Source of the DNA: Wenyingzhuangia fucanilytica
GTDB lineage: Bacteria; Bacteroidota; Bacteroidia; Flavobacteriales; Flavobacteriaceae
Assembly: GCF_001697185.1 (NCBI RefSeq)
Contig: NZ_CP014224.1
Location: forward strand, 1,054,001-1,118,000
DNA length: 64,000 nt
Direction: 5' to 3'
A program made the position numbers and the translations under genes. The number at the start of each line of letters is the position of its first letter. Position 1 is the stretch's first letter. Positions 799 to 48,036 of this stretch are shown in pieces. The notes beneath the pieces were generated by a model. The model saw only the letters and a program-made list of their open reading frames with translations. It was not told the DNA's origin and ran no database searches.

Positions 799-806
799 TA
801 TATTTG
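799..806 (+). promoter_or_regulatory. his operon -7 promoter box
   Basis: TATATTTG matches the Bacteroidota -7 consensus TAnnTTTG exactly and lies 18 bases before the his leader peptide start. The -33 TTG element is weak (T-rich around 777-780). The implied transcription start, near 812, would put the leader peptide and attenuator in the 5' leader. Confidence 0.6.
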
Positions 807-824
807 TCGAAGAAAATTTAGAAC

Positions 825-872
825 ATGAATACAGTAAAATTACACCATCATCATATCCAGTACTGCGCTTAA
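825..872 (+). CDS. hisL: his operon leader peptide
   Basis: A 15-codon open frame reads MNTVKLHHHHIQYCA and stops at 870-872. Four consecutive histidine codons (843-854) are the mark of a his leader peptide, whose translation senses charged tRNA-His. It lies between a TAnnTTTG box and a Rho-independent terminator, 105 bases before hisG. A stalled ribosome at the His codons would leave bases from about 867 free to pair with the terminator's 5' arm. It is far too short for ordinary gene calling; the His run and the structures around it are the support. Confidence 0.88.
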   Translation: MNTVKLHHHHIQYCA

Positions 873-947
873 GCGAGTTGGAAGGATTATGTTGTAATAT
901 GAACATATATTTTCAAACCCGTTTGAGCTGTCTCGAACGGGTTTTTT
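857..947 (+). promoter_or_regulatory. his attenuator (protector hairpin, antiterminator, terminator)
   Basis: Three mutually exclusive structures can be traced. The terminator is a 12-bp stem, 916-927 with 932-943 (one G-T pair), with a CTGT loop and a T tract from 942 to 947. The antiterminator pairs 867-881 with 914-928: 11 Watson-Crick pairs, two G-U pairs and two mismatches, and it would consume the terminator's 5' arm. A protector hairpin, 857-859/879-881, 862-864/876-878 and 866-868/873-875, would hide 867-881 when no ribosome stalls. The leader stop codon (870-872) sits inside the antiterminator arm, so a ribosome that finishes the leader blocks it. This is the classical amino-acid attenuation layout; folding energies were not computed. 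Confidence 0.85.
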
Positions 948-977
948 ATTTTAAAAATTGATATAAACTATATACAA

Positions 978-1835
978 ATGAGCACATTAAAAATTGCCAT
1001 TCAAAAATCTGGAAGATTAAATGAAGATTCTTTACAACTTTTAAAAGAATGTGGAATCTCAATAGATCATCGCAATGCACAGTTAAAAGCTACAGCGAGA
1101 AATTTTCCTTTAGAAGTTTTTTATTTGAGAAATGGAGATATTCCTCAATATTTAGAAGATGGAGTGGTAGATATTGCTATTTTAGGTGAAAATACTTTGA
1201 TTGAAAAAGGAGATAAGTTACCTATAGTAGAACGTTTAGGTTTTTCTAAATGTAAAGTTTCATTAGCAGTGCCTAAGGATGTAGATTATACAGGTATTTC
1301 TTATTTTGAAGGAAAGCGTATTGCAACTTCATACACAAATACTTTAGAGAAGTTTTTAAAAGAAAAAAACATAAAAGCTAGTTATCATAAAATTGCAGGG
1401 TCTGTAGAGATTGCTCCAAATATTGGTTTGGCAGATGGAATTTGTGATATTGTTAGTTCTGGAGGAACGTTGTTTGCCAACGGATTAAAAGAAGCAGAAG
1501 TAATGTTTTGGTCTGAAGCAGTATTGACATCATCACCTAAATTATCTGAAGAAAAACAAGCTTTATTAGATAAATTACAATTTAGAATTCAGGCAATTTT
1601 AAAAGGACGTGCTAACAGATATGTATTGTTAAACGCTCCTAATAATAAGGTTGATGACATTATTAAAGTAATTCCAGGGATGAAATCTCCTACAGTCTTA
1701 CCTTTAGCACAAGAAGGATGGAGTTCTATACATACAGTAATTCCTAAAGATAAGTTTTGGGATATTTTAGATGAGTTAAAAGCTTTAGGTGCCGAAGGTA
1801 TTTTAACTACAGAGATAGAGAAAATGGTATTATAA
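978..1835 (+). CDS. hisG: ATP phosphoribosyltransferase, long form
   Basis: HisG condenses ATP with PRPP in the first committed step of histidine synthesis. At 285 residues this is the long form: a periplasmic-binding-protein-like catalytic domain (residues 1 to about 210; SGRLNEDSLQLL near the N-terminus, SSGGTLFANGL near 160) plus a C-terminal ACT-like regulatory domain (about 215-285) that binds histidine, so HisZ is not needed. It is the first gene of the his operon, 30 bases after the attenuator T tract, so it should be under both attenuation and feedback inhibition. Confidence 0.97.
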   Translation: MSTLKIAIQKSGRLNEDSLQLLKECGISIDHRNAQLKATARNFPLEVFYLRNGDIPQYLEDGVVDIAILGENTLIEKGDKLPIVERLGFSKCKVSLAVPKDVDYTGISYFEGKRIATSYTNTLEKFLKEKNIKASYHKIAGSVEIAPNIGLADGICDIVSSGGTLFANGLKEAEVMFWSEAVLTSSPKLSEEKQALLDKLQFRIQAILKGRANRYVLLNAPNNKVDDIIKVIPGMKSPTVLPLAQEGWSSIHTVIPKDKFWDILDELKALGAEGILTTEIEKMVL

Positions 1836-1923
1836 ATTAGTACAAAGTAAAAGTAAAAAGTACAAAGTTAGCGTAGCTACTGTACTAACTACTAACTACT
1901 CAGTACTCAGTACTAGTAAACAA
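1836..1923 (+). repeat. heptad-based hairpin spacer, hisG-hisD gap
   Basis: The 88-bp gap is built of degenerate 7-bp units: AGTACAA/AGTAAAA-type words in the left half and ACTACTA, ACTACTC, AGTACTC, AGTACTA in the right half, around a central GTAGCTAC palindrome. The two halves are imperfectly complementary, so the transcript can fold into a long, bulged hairpin. No ORF with a plausible product is seen. It is the first of seven such spacers in this operon. Confidence 0.75.
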
Positions 1924-3207
1924 ATGAAAACATATAATAATCCAGCAAAAAATACATGGGCAGAAATTACCAAACGTCCTGCCAAAGAGGCTAATACGTT
2001 AGGAGCTACTGTAAAAGCTGTTTTTGATGATATAAAAGAGAATGGAGATGTTGCGTTAAAGCAATACACTCAAAAATTTGATGGAGTTACTTTGTCAGAT
2101 TTAAAAGTTTCTCAACAAGAAATTGACCAAGCAATTCCTTTGGTTTCTCAAGAATTAAAGGATGCTATTGTTTTGGCTAAAAACAATGTAGAAAAATTTC
2201 ATACTTCTCAAAAAATAGAGAAGAAAGTAATTTCTACAACTAATGGGGTAGATTGCTGGCAAGAAATGAAACCTATAGAAAAGGTAGGTTTGTATATTCC
2301 AGGAGGTTCTGCACCTTTATTTTCTACTATTTTAATGTTGGGTGTCCCAGCAAAAATAGCAGGAGCAAGTAAAATAGTTTTGTGTACACCACCATCTAAA
2401 GATGGAACCATTAATCCAGCAATTTTGTTTGCTGCCCAATTAGTGGGGGTTACAGAAATTTATAAGTTAGGTGGAATTCAAGCCATTGCAGCTATGACTT
2501 ATGGAACGGAATCTGTGCCTAATGTGTATAAGATTTTTGGACCAGGAAATCAGTTTGTAACCGCTGCAAAACAATATACTTTAACACAAGGTTTGGCTAT
2601 TGATATGCCTGCAGGACCTAGCGAAGTTATGGTAGTTGCAGATAAAAATGCAGATGCTAGTTTTGTGGTAGCAGATTTATTATCGCAAGCAGAACACGGA
2701 GCTGACAGTCAAGTAATTTTGGTAACAGAGTCTCAGCAACTGATAGATGATGTACAAGTTGAGTTGAAAAAACAATTGGATGAGTTGCCTAGAAAAGAAA
2801 TCGCTTTAGGAGCTATTGAAAATTCTAGTGCTATTTTATTAGAGAATATTGCAGATCAAAATGAGTTGATTAACGAATATGCTCCAGAACATTTAATTTT
2901 AAATGTGGTTGATGAATCTGTATATATTGATGAAATTGTAAATGCGGGTTCTGTGTTTATAGGGCCTTTAACTCCAGAAAGTGCGGGAGATTATGCATCA
3001 GGAACCAATCATACTTTACCTACAAACGGATATGCAAGAATGTATAGTGGTGTAAATTTAGATGCGTTTACTAAGAAAATCACTTATCAGAAAATAACAA
3101 AAGAAGGAATTCAGAATATTGGGCCTGCTATTGAATTAATGGCTGCTGCCGAAGGTTTAGATGCACACAAAAATGCAGTAACCTTAAGATTAAAAAGTTT
3201 GAAATAA
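1924..3207 (+). CDS. hisD: histidinol dehydrogenase
   Basis: HisD carries out the last two steps of the pathway, oxidising histidinol through the aldehyde to histidine with NAD+ and a bound zinc. The 427-residue length is standard. Recognisable blocks are VGLYIPGG (about 121-128), KIFGPGNQFVTAAK, the DMPAGPSE block, the zinc region QAEHGADSQ and the C-terminal NHTLPTNGYAR segment with its conserved histidine. It starts directly at the end of the first heptad spacer. Confidence 0.98.
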   Translation: MKTYNNPAKNTWAEITKRPAKEANTLGATVKAVFDDIKENGDVALKQYTQKFDGVTLSDLKVSQQEIDQAIPLVSQELKDAIVLAKNNVEKFHTSQKIEKKVISTTNGVDCWQEMKPIEKVGLYIPGGSAPLFSTILMLGVPAKIAGASKIVLCTPPSKDGTINPAILFAAQLVGVTEIYKLGGIQAIAAMTYGTESVPNVYKIFGPGNQFVTAAKQYTLTQGLAIDMPAGPSEVMVVADKNADASFVVADLLSQAEHGADSQVILVTESQQLIDDVQVELKKQLDELPRKEIALGAIENSSAILLENIADQNELINEYAPEHLILNVVDESVYIDEIVNAGSVFIGPLTPESAGDYASGTNHTLPTNGYARMYSGVNLDAFTKKITYQKITKEGIQNIGPAIELMAAAEGLDAHKNAVTLRLKSLK

Positions 3208-3295
3208 TTAGTACAAAGTACAAAGTACGGAGTACAGAGTATTTAGTAACAAAGAAACTTAGGACTTTGTCTCAATACTTAATACTAATTAAATT
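3208..3295 (+). repeat. heptad-based hairpin spacer, hisD-hisC gap
   Basis: This 88-bp gap opens with successive 7-bp words AGTACAA, AGTACAA, AGTACGG, AGTACAG, AGTATTT and closes with complementary words (GACTTTG, CAATACT, TAATACT). The halves can pair imperfectly around AAAGAAACTT. It uses the same vocabulary as the hisG-hisD and hisB-hisH gaps. Confidence 0.75.
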
Positions 3296-4339
3296 ATGAG
3301 TTTCAATTTAAACAAGATAGTAAGAGAAAATGTAGCTAACATGAAGGCATATTCATCTGCAAGAGATGAGTTTACTGGAGCTACTAATGATATGGTTTTC
3401 TTAGATGCGAATGAAAATCCGTTTGAAAACGGGGTGAATCGTTATCCGGATCCCATGCAAAAGACCGTAAAGTCTGAATTGGCAAAAATTAAAGAAGTTG
3501 CTCAAGAAAACATTTTGTTAGGAAATGGTTCTGATGAAGTGATTGATTTAATTTTGCGTGCTTTTTGTGAACCTAAAGAAGATAATATTATCACTTTACC
3601 ACCTTCATATGGAATGTATGATGTGTCGGCTAATTTGAATAATATTAGTATTAAAGAAGTTCCTTTAAAAGAAAATTTTCAGCCTAATGTTGCTAAAATA
3701 TTAGAAACAGTTGATGCCAATACTAAAGTGATTTTCTTGTGTTCGCCAAACAATCCATCAGGAAACTTGTTTGATTATGCCAATGTAAAAGCCATTGTAG
3801 AAGGTTTTAACGGATTGGTGGTGGTAGATGAAGCTTATATAGATTTTGCATCGGAACCAAGTTGGGTAGCTCGTTTAGAAAAACATCCGAATTTAATTGT
3901 GAGTCAAACCATGTCTAAAGCTTTTGGTATGGCAGGAATCCGCTTGGGAGTTTGTTATGCATCTGTCGAAATTATAGCAGTGTTAAACAAAATTAAACCT
4001 CCATATAATGTAAATGAATTAACACAGCAAAAAGCTTTAGAGCGTTTGTTGGCTTATGAAGATGTACAAGAAGAAATAGAGGCTGTTTTGGTGGAGCGAG
4101 ACAATTTAGAAATTGCTTTAAAGGAGATTTCTTTTGTGGAGAAAATATATCCTAGTGATGCTAATTTTTTATTAGTAAAAGTAGATGATGCTACAAAGCG
4201 TTACACTCAACTAATAGAAAAAGGAATTGTAGTACGTAATAGAACCACTCAAGCATTGTGTGAAAACACCTTACGATTTACAGTGGGTACGATAAAGGAG
4301 AATGTTGCTCTAATGAAAGCTTTGAAAGAATTAGAGTAA
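3296..4339 (+). CDS. hisC: histidinol-phosphate aminotransferase
   Basis: HisC is a PLP-dependent class I/II aminotransferase that transfers the amino group of glutamate to imidazole acetol phosphate. Seen here: LDANENP (about 38-44), the NPSGN block, VVDEAYIDF with the PLP aspartate and tyrosine, and the Schiff-base lysine in SQTMSKAFGMAGIRLG. The 347-residue length is typical. Confidence 0.97.
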   Translation: MSFNLNKIVRENVANMKAYSSARDEFTGATNDMVFLDANENPFENGVNRYPDPMQKTVKSELAKIKEVAQENILLGNGSDEVIDLILRAFCEPKEDNIITLPPSYGMYDVSANLNNISIKEVPLKENFQPNVAKILETVDANTKVIFLCSPNNPSGNLFDYANVKAIVEGFNGLVVVDEAYIDFASEPSWVARLEKHPNLIVSQTMSKAFGMAGIRLGVCYASVEIIAVLNKIKPPYNVNELTQQKALERLLAYEDVQEEIEAVLVERDNLEIALKEISFVEKIYPSDANFLLVKVDDATKRYTQLIEKGIVVRNRTTQALCENTLRFTVGTIKENVALMKALKELE

Positions 4340-4413
4340 AAGAAGTTAAGAATTAAAGAAGTTAAGTAAGTGGTAGTCTTTTTACCTTTTACTTTTATCT
4401 AGATACTGAAAAG
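4340..4413 (+). repeat. heptad-based hairpin spacer, hisC-hisB gap
   Basis: The 74-bp gap carries purine-rich words with a 14-mer-like repeat (AAGAAGTTAAG twice) followed by pyrimidine-rich partner words (ACCTTTT, ACTTTTA). It is the most degenerate of the seven spacers, but keeps the layout of direct words in the left half and rough complements in the right. Confidence 0.6.
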
Positions 4414-5553
4414 ATGAAAAAAGTTTTATTTATAGACAGAGACGGTACCCTTTGTATTGAACCGCCTGTGGATTATCAATTAGATAGTTTAGAAAAGTTA
4501 GAGTTTTACCCAAAAGTTTTCCGTTACCTAGCAAGAATTGCTGATGAATTGGATTATGAACTTGTCATGGTAACCAATCAAGATGGATTGGGAACAGATT
4601 CTTTTCCAGAAGATACCTTTTGGCCTGCTCAAAACAAGGTGATTCAAGCTTTTAAGAACGAAGGAGTAGAATTTGCTTCCGTACATATTGATAAAACTTT
4701 TCCGCATGAAAATGCTGAAACGCGTAAGCCAAGAACAGGTTTGTTAACGCAGTATTTTGATAAAGAAAAATATGATTTAGAAAATTCTTTTGTGTTAGGT
4801 GATAGAATTACCGACATGGAATTGGCTAAAAATTTAGGAGCCAAAGGAATCTTTTTATCGGAAAATCCAGAATTGGGAGCTGATGAAGTGGAAGCTGATG
4901 TAAAGGTTATTCACGATTGTATTGCCTTAACTTCTACCGATTGGAAAGAAATTTATGAGTTTTTAAAACTTGAGGATAGAGTTTCAGAAATCACAAGAAA
5001 TACTAACGAAACTAAAATTCACATCAAATTAAATTTAGACGGTTCTGGTAAAAATGATATTGATACTGGAGTAAAATTCTTTGATCATATGTTAGACCAA
5101 ATAGGTCGTCATGGTTCTATGGATTTAACCGTAAAAGTAGATGGAGATTTAGAGGTTGATGAACATCACACCATAGAAGATACCATGATTGCTTTAGGAG
5201 AATTGTTCCACAAAGCCTTAGGAAATAAATTAGGAATAGAACGTTATGGATTCTGCTTACCAATGGACGATTGTTTGGCTCAAGCTGCTGTAGATTTTGG
5301 AGGAAGACCATGGATTGAGTGGGATGCTGAATTTAATAGAGAGATGATTGGAGACATGCCTACAGAAATGTTTTTCCACTTATTCAAATCGTTTACCGAT
5401 GGGGCTAAATGTAATTTGAACATTAAAGCTGAAGGAAAAAATGAGCATCACAAAATAGAGGGGATTTTTAAAGCTTTTGCAAAAGCAATGAAAATGGCTG
5501 TAAAACGAGATGCCAATAAAATGTTTTTACCAAGTACAAAAGGTTTGCTTTAG
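4414..5553 (+). CDS. hisB: bifunctional histidinol-phosphatase / imidazoleglycerol-phosphate dehydratase
   Basis: A two-domain HisB of 379 residues. Residues 1 to about 165 are a HAD-type histidinol-phosphatase with the nucleophile motif DRDGT (8-12), TNQDGLG and [15 protein letters not shown]. Residues about 190-379 are the dehydratase, with the manganese-binding [13 protein letters not shown] and DEHHTIEDT blocks and DFGGRPW. The fusion supplies steps 6 and 8, so no separate hisN is needed. Confidence 0.97.
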
Positions 5554-5649
5554 CAAACCAGTACAAAGTACTGAGTAAAGAGTATTAAGTTTTAGCAGTA
5601 CTACTGTATTAACTTTGTACTTTGTACTATGTACTCAATACTAAAATAT
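5554..5649 (+). repeat. heptad-based hairpin spacer, hisB-hisH gap
   Basis: This 96-bp gap reads AGTACAA, AGTACTG, AGTAAAG, AGTATTA, AGTTTTA in the left half, and the right half (AACTTTGTACTTTGTACT...) is an imperfect reverse complement, giving a long bulged hairpin. An upstream ATG at 5629 lies inside the repeat and would add seven residues to HisH that are not part of the family. Confidence 0.75.
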
Positions 5650-6231
5650 ATGAAAATAGTAATTATAAACTACGGAGCAGGAAACATACAATCTATCCGA
5701 TTTGCTATAGAACGATTGGGATATGAAGCTGTTTTAAGCAACGATGTTGAAGAAATAAAAAGTGCAGACAAAGTTATTTTTCCAGGAGTGGGAGAAGCAA
5801 GTTCTGCCATGAAAATGTTAAAAGCTACCGGGTTAGATGCTGTAATTCCAACCTTAACACAGCCTGTTTTAGGAATTTGTTTGGGAATGCAATTAATGTG
5901 TAACTATTCTGAAGAAGGAGATACCAAAGGTTTAGGCATTTTTAATGTAGATGTAAAACGTTTTGAAAACATTGTAAAAGTTCCTCAAATAGGATGGAAT
6001 CAGATTAAAGGATTGGGTTCTAAAATTTTTAACGATGTAAAAGAAGGTGCTTATATGTATTTGGTACACAGTTACTATGCACCTATTACAAAAGAAACCA
6101 TTGCAACTACAGAATACGGAGTACAATATTCCACAGCATTGCAAAAAGCTAATTTTTATGGAGTGCAATTTCATCCAGAAAAAAGTAGTACAGACGGAGC
6201 GAAGATTTTAGAGAATTTTTTGAATTTATAG
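5650..6231 (+). CDS. hisH: imidazole glycerol phosphate synthase glutaminase subunit
   Basis: HisH is the class I glutamine amidotransferase that feeds ammonia to HisF. The ATG at 5650 gives MKIVIINYGAGN, the normal HisH start; an ATG at 5629 is in the preceding repeat. The 193 residues include the nucleophile elbow GICLGMQLM and the His/Glu of the triad in GVQFHPEKS near the C-terminus. Confidence 0.97.
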   Translation: MKIVIINYGAGNIQSIRFAIERLGYEAVLSNDVEEIKSADKVIFPGVGEASSAMKMLKATGLDAVIPTLTQPVLGICLGMQLMCNYSEEGDTKGLGIFNVDVKRFENIVKVPQIGWNQIKGLGSKIFNDVKEGAYMYLVHSYYAPITKETIATTEYGVQYSTALQKANFYGVQFHPEKSSTDGAKILENFLNL

Positions 6232-6303
6232 AAGGTGGTACATTGTAGTTGGGTATTGGATTTTACCAATTACCAACAACCAATTACCACATACCAAAAG
6301 AAA
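6232..6303 (+). repeat. heptad-based hairpin spacer, hisH-hisA gap
   Basis: The 72-bp gap has TTGG words on the left (GTAGTTGGGTATTGG) and the complementary 7-bp words ACCAATT, ACCAACA, ACCAATT, ACCACAT, ACCAAAA on the right. It is a different vocabulary from the AGTAC spacers but the same architecture. It stays open in the hisA frame, so a start at 6235 is possible on paper but not believable. Confidence 0.75.
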
Positions 6304-7029
6304 ATGAGAATTATACCAGCCATAGATATTATTAACGGACAATGTGTTCGTTTGTCTAAAGGAGATTACAATACTAAAAAAGTATACAACGAAAATCCTT
6401 TAGAAATTGCCAAGCAGTTTGAAGCTCACGGAATAGAGCATTTACATTTGGTGGATTTAGATGGAGCCAAAGCAAGTCATATTGTAAATCATAAAGTATT
6501 AGAAGAAATTGCAACCAAAACAACCTTAAAAATTGATTTTGGAGGTGGTTTAAAAACCGATGAAGATTTAAAAATTGCTTTTGAATCTGGTGCCAATCAA
6601 ATTACAGGAGGAAGTATTGCTGTTAAAAATGCCGATGTTTTTAAAAGTTGGATAACCAAATTCGGAGCTGATAAAATTATTTTAGGAGCCGATGCTAATA
6701 ACGAAAAAATTGCAGTAAGCGGTTGGTTAGAAGAATCTGATGAAGATTTAATTCCTTTTATTCAAGGATATCAAAAAGAAGGAATTGAATATGTAATTTG
6801 TACAGACATTGCCAAAGACGGAATGTTACAAGGTCCTTCTTTTGATTTGTATGAGAAAATTTTAAAAGAATGTCCTAAGGTAAAATTAATTGCAAGTGGA
6901 GGAATTTCTACTTTTGATGAATTACCAAGATTAAAAGAATTAGGATGCGAAGGAACCATTGTTGGTAAAGCGATTTACGAAAACAGAATTAGTTTAAAAC
7001 AATTGGAGGATTTTATTATAGGTAAATAG
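6304..7029 (+). CDS. hisA: ProFAR isomerase (1-(5-phosphoribosyl)-5-carboxamide isomerase)
   Basis: HisA is a TIM barrel that opens the ribose ring of ProFAR. The ATG at 6304 gives [17 protein letters not shown], with the catalytic Asp in PAIDI and the second catalytic Asp in [14 protein letters not shown]. The length of 241 residues is normal. A longer frame from 6235 would only translate the spacer repeat. Confidence 0.97.
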
Positions 7030-7099
7030 TAGTTGGTAATTGGTCGTTGGAATAAAAAAAGTCCAAACACCAAATACCAAGTACCAAATACAATTAAAG
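7030..7099 (+). repeat. heptad-based hairpin spacer, hisA-hisF gap
   Basis: The 70-bp gap reads TAGTTGG, TAATTGG, TCGTTGG, then an A-rich loop, then CCAAACA, CCAAATA, CCAAGTA, CCAAATA. The heptads are very clear here and the halves are complementary. It is open in the hisF frame from 7040. Confidence 0.8.
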
Positions 7100-7855
7100 A
7101 TGTTAGCAAAAAGAATAGTTCCTTGTTTGGATATTAAAAACGGAAGAACCGTAAAAGGTGTTAATTTTGTGGATTTGCGTGATGCAGGAGATCCTGTAGA
7201 GTTGGCAAAAAAATATGCAGAAACAGGAGCAGATGAATTGGTGTTTTTAGATATTTCTGCAACCGAAGAACGTAGAAGGACTTTGGTGAATTTGGTGCGA
7301 GATGTTGCAGCACAAGTAAACATTCCGTTTACGGTAGGTGGTGGAATATCATCTGTAGAAGATGTAGATATTTTATTACAAAATGGAGCTGATAAAGTTT
7401 CTATCAATTCCTCGGCAGTAAAAAGACCAAAATTGGTGAATGAATTATCACAAAAATTTGGAAGTCAATGTGTGGTTGTAGCAATTGATGCTAAGAAAAT
7501 TGATGGAGAATGGATCGTTCATTTAGTAGGAGGTAAAGTTCCTACAGAGTTGAATTTATTTGACTGGGCAAAAGAAGTAGAAGAAAGAGGAGCAGGAGAA
7601 ATTTTGTTTACTTCTATGAATAACGATGGAACCAAAGATGGTTTTGCTAATGAAGCTTTGGCTCGTTTGTCAGAAGAATTAAACATTCCTATTATTGCAA
7701 GTGGTGGAGCAGGGAATATGCAACACTTTGTAGATACTTTTAAAGATGGAAAAGCAGATGCAGCTTTGGCAGCAAGTGTGTTTCATTTTCAAGAAATTGA
7801 AATTCCAGATTTAAAACAAGAATTAAAAAAACAGGGAATTCCTGTAAGAATATAA
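7100..7855 (+). CDS. hisF: imidazole glycerol phosphate synthase cyclase subunit
   Basis: HisF is the TIM-barrel cyclase that forms IGP and AICAR with ammonia from HisH. The ATG at 7100 gives [20 protein letters not shown], the family start, with catalytic Asp in PCLDIK and the second in [11 protein letters not shown]. At 251 residues it is full length. Upstream codons from 7040 belong to the spacer. Confidence 0.97.
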
Positions 7856-7936
7856 TAAGTTTTTAATGTTGAAAGTTTAAAAGTTTGTAAAGTAACTTTT
7901 TCACTTTTTACTTTAAAACTTTATAAACTTAATAAC
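7856..7936 (+). repeat. heptad-based hairpin spacer, hisF-hisIE gap
   Basis: The 81-bp gap uses AAAGTTT-type words on the left and ACTTTTT, ACTTTAA, AACTTTA, TAAACTT on the right, again as roughly complementary halves. This is a third vocabulary in the same operon. Confidence 0.7.
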
Positions 7937-8530
7937 ATGGAAATTAAATTTGACGAAAAAGGATTAGTTCCTGCAATTATACAAGATGCTGAAACAAAAA
8001 ATGTATTGATGTTAGGGTACATGAATCAAGAAGCATTTGATAAAACAATAAGCACTAATAAAGTTACTTTTTACAGCAGATCTAAAAACAGATTATGGAC
8101 CAAAGGAGAAGAAAGTGGAAACTTTTTAGAATTGGTATCTATTAAAAATGATTGTGATAAAGATACGTTGTTGATTCAAACAAAACCTGTAGGGCCAACT
8201 TGCCATAAAGGAACAGGAAATTGCTGGGGAGAAGAAAATACAGAGAATTTTGGATTTTTATCTACCTTAGAAAACGTAATTGCAGAGCGTGTTAAAAACA
8301 AAGATGTTCAAAAATCTTACGTTGCAAGTTTGTTTGCCAAAGGAATAAACAAAGTAGCTCAAAAAGTAGGAGAAGAAGCGGTAGAAACTGTAATCGAGGC
8401 AATGGACAATAACGATGAATTGTTTTTATACGAAGCTGGAGATTTATTGTTTCATTACTTAATGTTACTGCAAGCCAAAGGATTTACTTTAACGGATATT
8501 ACTGCCGAATTAAAGAAAAGACAAAAGTAA
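7937..8530 (+). CDS. hisI: bifunctional phosphoribosyl-AMP cyclohydrolase / phosphoribosyl-ATP pyrophosphatase
   Basis: A fused HisIE of 197 residues. The N-terminal cyclohydrolase (1 to about 105) shows MLGYMNQEA, SRSKNRLWTKGE and the zinc-binding cysteines of GPTCHKGTGNCWG. The C-terminal pyrophosphatase (about 108-197) shows the KVGEEAVETVIEA helix with metal-binding acids. It performs steps 2 and 3 and closes the operon, which then encodes every enzyme of the pathway. Confidence 0.97.
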   Translation: MEIKFDEKGLVPAIIQDAETKNVLMLGYMNQEAFDKTISTNKVTFYSRSKNRLWTKGEESGNFLELVSIKNDCDKDTLLIQTKPVGPTCHKGTGNCWGEENTENFGFLSTLENVIAERVKNKDVQKSYVASLFAKGINKVAQKVGEEAVETVIEAMDNNDELFLYEAGDLLFHYLMLLQAKGFTLTDITAELKKRQK

Positions 8531-45919: not shown

Positions 45920-46034
45920 TTGTTTGTATTTAAAATAATTGATAATCAACCTTATTTTAAAAACAAAACACCAAGGAATAATAGGATAAATCCAATAAAA
46001 ATTTACCCAAAGCTATAACTCCCGAAAGCTTTGT

Positions 46035-46230
46035 CTTTAATAATTATTGGCAGGTATTCTGACTCATTTCACTTATTTAACCCTTCCCATCTATATTATA
46101 GACAGTGGTATTGTTAAAAAGATTTTTCTGTTATTACACAGAGAAACTTACAGCAGCGGGAACTGTTCAGGACTTACACCTGATTCCCTTTTAATGTACT
46201 TGCTTTATATAACAAGTACAACCAAAAATC
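46035..46230 (-). promoter_or_regulatory. cobalamin (AdoCbl) riboswitch
   Basis: On the minus strand the B12 box is clear: GGGAATCAGGTGTAAGTCC is followed by the CAGTTCCCGCTGCTGTAA-type core (46145-46195), and the 3' end carries AGAATACCTGCC (46049-46061), the conserved closing segment of this class. Loop regions between are variable. The riboswitch is the leader of the lipoprotein gene at 45919. Exact ends are estimated. Confidence 0.9.
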
Positions 46231-46235
46231 TGGAG

Positions 46236-46243
46236 CAAAACTA
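46236..46243 (-). promoter_or_regulatory. -7 box in front of the cobalamin riboswitch
   Basis: On the minus strand this is TAGTTTTG, an exact TAnnTTTG, ending just before the riboswitch. A -33 TTG was not found. Confidence 0.5.
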
Positions 46244-47962: not shown

Positions 47963-48036
47963 GGCCTCGTAGCATAACTGAATAGTGCACTTGATTACGG
48001 CTCAAGAGGTTGGAGGTTTGAATCCTCCCGAGGTCA
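47963..48036 (+). tRNA. tRNA-Arg (anticodon ACG)
   Basis: A 74-base cloverleaf. Acceptor stem GGCCTCG pairs with CGAGGTC (one G-U), with A as discriminator; D arm GCA/TGC; anticodon stem CTTGA/TCAAG with loop TTACGGC giving ACG; T arm GGAGG/CCTCC with loop TTTGAAT. The CCA end is not encoded. A34 would be deaminated to inosine by TadA. Confidence 0.96.

Follow-up and report, generated by a model that had tools for sequence, protein, structure and literature searches.

A probable his attenuator in Wenyingzhuangia fucanilytica and a conserved spacer segment of possible translational function in its relatives

The window, the 64,000-nucleotide stretch of the W. fucanilytica genome (3.43 Mb, single contig) analysed here, very probably contains at positions 799-952 a ribosome-mediated transcription attenuator of the his operon. 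The assignment is based on the sequence of the region, on conservation of the leader, on covariation of the antiterminator and the terminator, and on the operon that follows. The window copy is an ordinary his attenuator of known kind, because the leader and the terminator are conserved and the antiterminator and the terminator covary. Relatives often carry in addition a conserved stretch between the terminator and hisG, here termed segment D, and this D-bearing form would be new. The features of the window leader and of its operon are listed below.

799-806, plus strand: TAnnTTTG box TATATTTG, read from the sequence, a motif that we take to be the Bacteroidota -7 promoter box
825-872, plus strand: leader peptide reading frame MNTVKLHHHHIQYCA*, 15 residues, read from the sequence
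843-854, plus strand: four consecutive His codons, CAC CAT CAT CAT, read from the sequence; proposed sensor
856-882, plus strand: predicted protector hairpin, from folding (-8.4 kcal/mol, z -1.4)
867-928, plus strand: antiterminator, 867-875 pairing with 920-928 and 877-879 with 916-918, from folding and from covariation in relatives
915-952, plus strand: intrinsic terminator, stem 915-927/932-944 and loop 928-931, from sequence, folding, terminator scan and covariation
953-977, plus strand: spacer ahead of hisG, without segment D, from a search for the complement of the terminator apex
978-8530, plus strand: his operon hisG-D-C-B-H-A-F-IE, eight genes assigned with NCBIfam, downstream of the leader

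The original prediction of a 15-residue leader with four consecutive His codons is confirmed from the sequence, with the ATG at 825-827 and the TAA stop at 870-872. No Shine-Dalgarno sequence is visible ahead of this reading frame; in bacteria of this class, mRNAs mostly lack such sequences. The three alternative structures of that prediction were recovered to within a few bases. The protector, placed at 857-881, folds at 856-882; the antiterminator, placed at 867-881/914-928, folds at 867-879/916-928; and the terminator, placed at 916-947, has its stem at 915-944 with a T run from 942. The terminator stem comprises 13 bp (-18.3 kcal/mol, z -6.1, 0/200 shuffles as good) and ends 33 nt from hisG, and the U tract on its 3' side extends over 942-952 with one interrupting A. 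A terminator scan of 600-1100 returned one site, against 0.1 expected. The antiterminator fold is likewise better than all 200 of its shuffles (-22.1 kcal/mol, z -5.2), and the entire leader, 800-977, yields z -3.15, a value reached by 1 of 200 shuffles. The protector is weak on its own, because 20 of 200 shuffles are equally stable. All eight proteins of the operon exceed the cut-off of the NCBIfam family that names each, and the nearest named relatives are Wenyingzhuangia and Ochrovirga, whose hisG is 93-95% identical.

Taken together with textbook attenuation, this anatomy suggests where the ribosome would stand, how charged tRNA-His would act as the signal, how ribosome and polymerase would be coupled and where transcription would stop. 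With histidyl-tRNA plentiful, a ribosome at the leader stop would cover the antiterminator 5' arm (867-879), the terminator would fold and transcription would end near 945-952. With charged tRNA-His scarce, the ribosome would stall at the His codons, 867-879 would be free for pairing with 916-928, and the resulting antiterminator would allow RNA polymerase to continue into hisG. A leader left untranslated would form the protector hairpin, sequestering the antiterminator arm and leading to termination. Because all of the antiterminator has been transcribed by the time RNA polymerase reaches the terminator 3' arm, it can fold ahead of the terminator. Once that arm exists the terminator outcompetes the antiterminator in equilibrium energy, and the switch would therefore have to be kinetic. 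If the attenuator reading is true, it implies tight transcription-translation coupling in these bacteria.

Conservation was assessed on 80 hisG loci from named genomes plus further genomes of the phylum; of the 171 genomes of the phylum that gave a hisG match, 70 were examined (30 returned as loci, 40 fetched). The 286 loci used were reduced to 267 distinct ones by removing seven with no usable hisG match (L153-L157, L343, L344), duplicates, and loci with too little upstream sequence. A leader, defined as a reading frame with at least three His in six codons, precedes hisG in 253 of the 267 loci, and in 240 it is followed by a terminator, so that relatives retain the His codons jointly with the terminator as the attenuator reading predicts. 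Among 57 control regions, taken from ahead of trpE or ilvD, 6 satisfy the same loose His criterion applied in any frame. Half of the 14 failing loci belong to other classes of the phylum (L120, L122, L126-L128, L133, L151), and L081 runs into the end of its contig; in L232 and L320 inspection by eye reveals a less pronounced His leader together with a terminator. A TAnnTTTG box lies at most 60 nt from the leader ATG for 144 of 250 leaders, against 11.8 expected from shuffles. Sampling of the phylum's most distant groups and hisG genes was sparse, and it is therefore for the window's class that the distribution can best be given; in that class, the window copy and its relatives point to classical ribosome-mediated attenuation as the normal mode of his operon control. 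Thirteen loci combine a His-rich leader reading frame with the lack of a terminator passing the score (L110, L113, L115, L137, L139, L141, L346 and others), and some of these possibly rely on translational attenuation; in L258 and L264 a hairpin resembling a terminator can be seen by eye.

Covariation was evaluated on alignment A1, obtained by thinning the 168 loci with TTTGA/TCTGA-type terminators to 114 according to likeness and length. The antiterminator is paired in 83.9% of cells against 20-42% in slid controls, which keep relatedness, the structures being taken from one row (L022), which favours the unslid version. Four of its ten pairs are changed on both sides, and double-change cells number 38 against 1.6 in shuffles, which ignore relatedness and none of which, among 500, is as high; the pairing is thus kept with compensatory changes. 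Its weak spots are columns 69:138, unpaired in 110 of 114 rows, and 70:137, unpaired in 34. For the terminator, 98.8% of cells are paired and double-change cells number 45 against 13.2 shuffled; in row L219 the antiterminator arm and the terminator have changed in matching fashion. Retention of the terminator with loss of the His codons or of the antiterminator pairing, the pattern named in advance as speaking against the attenuator, is not what the relatives show overall in the sequence comparison. The placement of the leader stop inside the antiterminator 5' arm stood for the window and its clade and fell as a general feature: in 133 of the 168 loci with this terminator type the leader reads on past that position, ending in ...QA plus up to three residues.

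These comparisons also bear on whether the window could hold a terminator alone, or a ligand- or protein-binding leader, next to a His-rich reading frame that arose by chance. The Rfam L10_leader model (RF00557) does match 789-956 and would fit such an account, at a sub-threshold 25.4 bits against a gathering level of 44 (E 0.039 for 501 bases), a score too low for the L10_leader reading to be kept. The excess of His-cluster leaders over the control regions and the covarying antiterminator make this explanation very improbable. The window leader shows clustered His codons, an antiterminator and a terminator that are predicted to be mutually exclusive and that covary, and a position before the his operon, all in keeping with ribosome-mediated attenuation.

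In Proteobacteria, where ribosome-mediated attenuation is textbook knowledge, the his attenuator combines a leader His run with alternative protector, antiterminator and terminator hairpins, and the His run of the enterobacterial leader is longer than four. The window leader resembles this system in its His-run peptide and in the antiterminator/terminator alternatives before the his operon, to which a protector is predicted to belong. It differs in having only four His in its run, in showing no Shine-Dalgarno sequence ahead of the reading frame, and in that the proteobacterial model (RF00514, His_leader) fails to match, with no gathering-level match in the window and none up to E 10 on 600-1100. 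The original prediction had hinted at novelty on the ground that amino-acid attenuation is best known in Proteobacteria. This hint is undercut by an earlier report on leader-peptide attenuation in the family (PMC9723704) and by the trp loci of the family, since consecutive Trp codons followed by a terminator precede trpE at 30 of 30 loci fetched, the genome of the window included. There (L217), a trp leader has three consecutive Trp codons and a terminator, which counts for the attenuator reading. An ATG-started trp leader with at least two Trp is present at 29 of the 30 loci, the exception being L191. A 2004 comparative study reportedly already mentions Bacteroidetes attenuators. In Flavobacterium psychrophilum, strong clues of leader-peptide attenuation upstream of amino-acid biosynthesis operons were reported, as was a conserved, unnamed 5' element upstream of hisG without Rfam hits; the excerpts available of that paper describe no segment D and no hisG switch (PMC9723704). 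As far as the accessible parts of the sources extend, his, leu, thr and trp attenuators are counted in another study only as Rfam represents them (PMC3766115), and the sole relevant passage found in the Bacteroides map is a reference (PMC7366714). Of 27 main ilvD loci, 15 could be read. By eye, L167 has, about 175 nt before ilvD, a short reading frame rich in Ile and Val with a terminator after it, probably an ilv attenuator.

Segment D, often GGTTTACTCAGAC, complements the apex of the terminator, often GTCTGAGTAAATC. When 228 loci with spacers of at least 16 nt were compared with dinucleotide shuffles at p<=0.01 (12 loci with shorter spacers being excluded), the complement was found in 117, against 2.3 expected by chance; at the same loci the region ahead of the leader gave 1/228 and the reversed spacer 4/228. 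Among the trp leaders, 0 of the 17 testable loci carry D at p<=0.01, 13 of the 30 having spacers below 16 nt. On A1, 8 of the 12 apex:D pairs are changed on both sides, double-change cells number 88 against 27.8 shuffled, and 89.1% of cells are paired against 30-44% when slid. For 52 of 54 distinct apex types the fit of D to its own apex exceeds the mean fit to the others, in rows preselected for good fit. These comparative data are good evidence that the apex:D pairing is real. The 3' end of D lies a median of 16 nt before the hisG ATG (quartiles 15-19), falling at 14-19 nt in 83 of 117 loci, and the distance from D to the terminator is more variable (quartiles 10-20). In the window, the apex complement is no better than chance (p 0.525), none was found in 953-977 with up to 3 mismatches, and the only reverse complement of the apex around the leader is the terminator itself (921-932, minus strand).

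A tentative proposal is that in the relatives D acts as an additional, translational lock on hisG. On an antiterminated transcript the terminator loop and 3' arm would be free, and D would pair with the whole apex before the hisG start is transcribed, so that the start would remain open; on a leaky transcript with a folded terminator, D would be free to pair with the hisG start codon. Besides the covarying apex:D complement, the position of D, mostly ending 14-19 nt from the ATG, speaks for this function, as does the order of predicted energies: terminator:D has a lower energy than the antiterminator at all 68 aligned D-bearing loci, and at 86 of 117 its stability equals or exceeds that of the terminator. 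The prediction for the hisG start codon is 0.24 unpaired when D is free, against 0.53 with D held by the terminator and 0.46 with shuffled spacers, and 0.60 in loci without D, rows with p 0.01-0.05 falling in neither of the groups compared. A complement between spacer and hisG start region (p<=0.05) is present in 69 of 117 D-bearing loci, against 7 of 111 without D, and a swap test over 23 start types gave a mean rank for D:start of 0.68 (p 0.025). However, 48 of the 117 D-bearing loci show no significant D:start complement, and D significantly hides the start in only 4 of these. Covariation of D with the start is weak, with 24 double-change cells against 14.1 shuffled and a pair count reached by 231 of 500 shuffles. 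Once the start is transcribed, 111 of 117 loci have their equilibrium on the side of the terminator together with a folded D-start region. The energies suit a kinetic model with two locks without proving it. In five loci with GAGACAATC-/GAGATAATC-type apices (L238, L241, L270, L284, L305) the anti-apex part of D extends into ACTCAT, and the apex and start pairings look shifted apart because ACTCAT complements the ATGAGT start.

Much the same D-to-ATG interval recurs in most loci that lack a D:start complement, as would be expected if the terminator:D pairing were itself the inhibitory state and blocked ribosome loading just upstream of hisG. This is unlikely, as the terminator:D helix in most cases stops 14-19 nt short of the ATG, close to where a 30S footprint ends, and holding D there raises the predicted accessibility of the start. 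More doubtful still is an action in trans, in which the loop of the terminated leader RNA would pair with D on the full-length his mRNA. Such a role would agree with D complementing the loop and often parts of both arms, and has a precedent in Rli51, a Listeria attenuator RNA described, in the excerpt available, as a trans-acting sRNA (PMC11394854). Against it, the loop is mostly 4-5 nt on a stable stem, and scans of two genomes with up to 2 mismatches brought out no further D site that was conspicuous, as matches besides D and the terminator number 6 in G224 (backward control 12) and 6 in G288 (control 3).

D is found in Flavobacteriales rows and, among the Bacteroidales, for example in Marinifilum and Labilibaculum. 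On a quick-method tree of HisG, built from the 156 loci holding a full hisG, D presence requires 16 changes, against a mean of 42.6 and a lowest value of 36 in 50 shuffles. The window's clade has eight rows, seven without D and one undecided; near it, L219, L220, L221 and L228 bear D and L089 does not. Because D-bearing rows lie near by, the clade likely lost D, on a tree in which several supports are low. To return to the translational lock, it is conceivable, at somewhat less than an even chance, that the his attenuator of many Flavobacteriales and of some Bacteroidales works with two locks and that the window's clade has lost D. The terminator would then double as a decoy, taking D off antiterminated transcripts, which would be translated, and leaky transcripts would retain D on the start codon and stay silent. 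If D acts as proposed, an amino-acid attenuator would also filter leaky transcripts at translation and the terminator loop would imitate a start codon. Segment D exists in dozens of natural, mutually compensated variants.

The nearest dual designs found to the D-bearing form, within the portions of the papers available, are both from Bacillus subtilis. At yxjB, a ribosome stalled on the leader peptide averts termination as well as translational repression, and a hairpin hides the Shine-Dalgarno sequence and the initially translated region (PMC6851288). It thus resembles the proposed D device in the dual control of termination and translation through a stalled leader ribosome, but it senses an antibiotic (tylosin); in the text available no overlapping antiterminator is identified and, unlike at D-bearing loci, no complement of the terminator apex before the start is described (PMC6851288). 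The B. subtilis trp leader governs both termination and the hiding of the trpE Shine-Dalgarno sequence, through the TRAP protein and not through a translated leader peptide, according to the excerpt at hand (PMC12288461). A literature search returned no segment D in titles and opening abstracts, the supplements of PMC9723704 lying outside its scope.

Within the operon, the intergenic spacers at 1881-1911, 3203-3247 and 5559-5590 contain imperfect AGTAC-type repeats, for example AGTACAAAGTACGGAGTACAGAGTATTTAGT. In the window as a whole, the only Rfam matches at gathering level are a cobalamin riboswitch at 46032-46241 on the minus strand (95.9 bits) and a tRNA at 47963-48036 on the plus strand.
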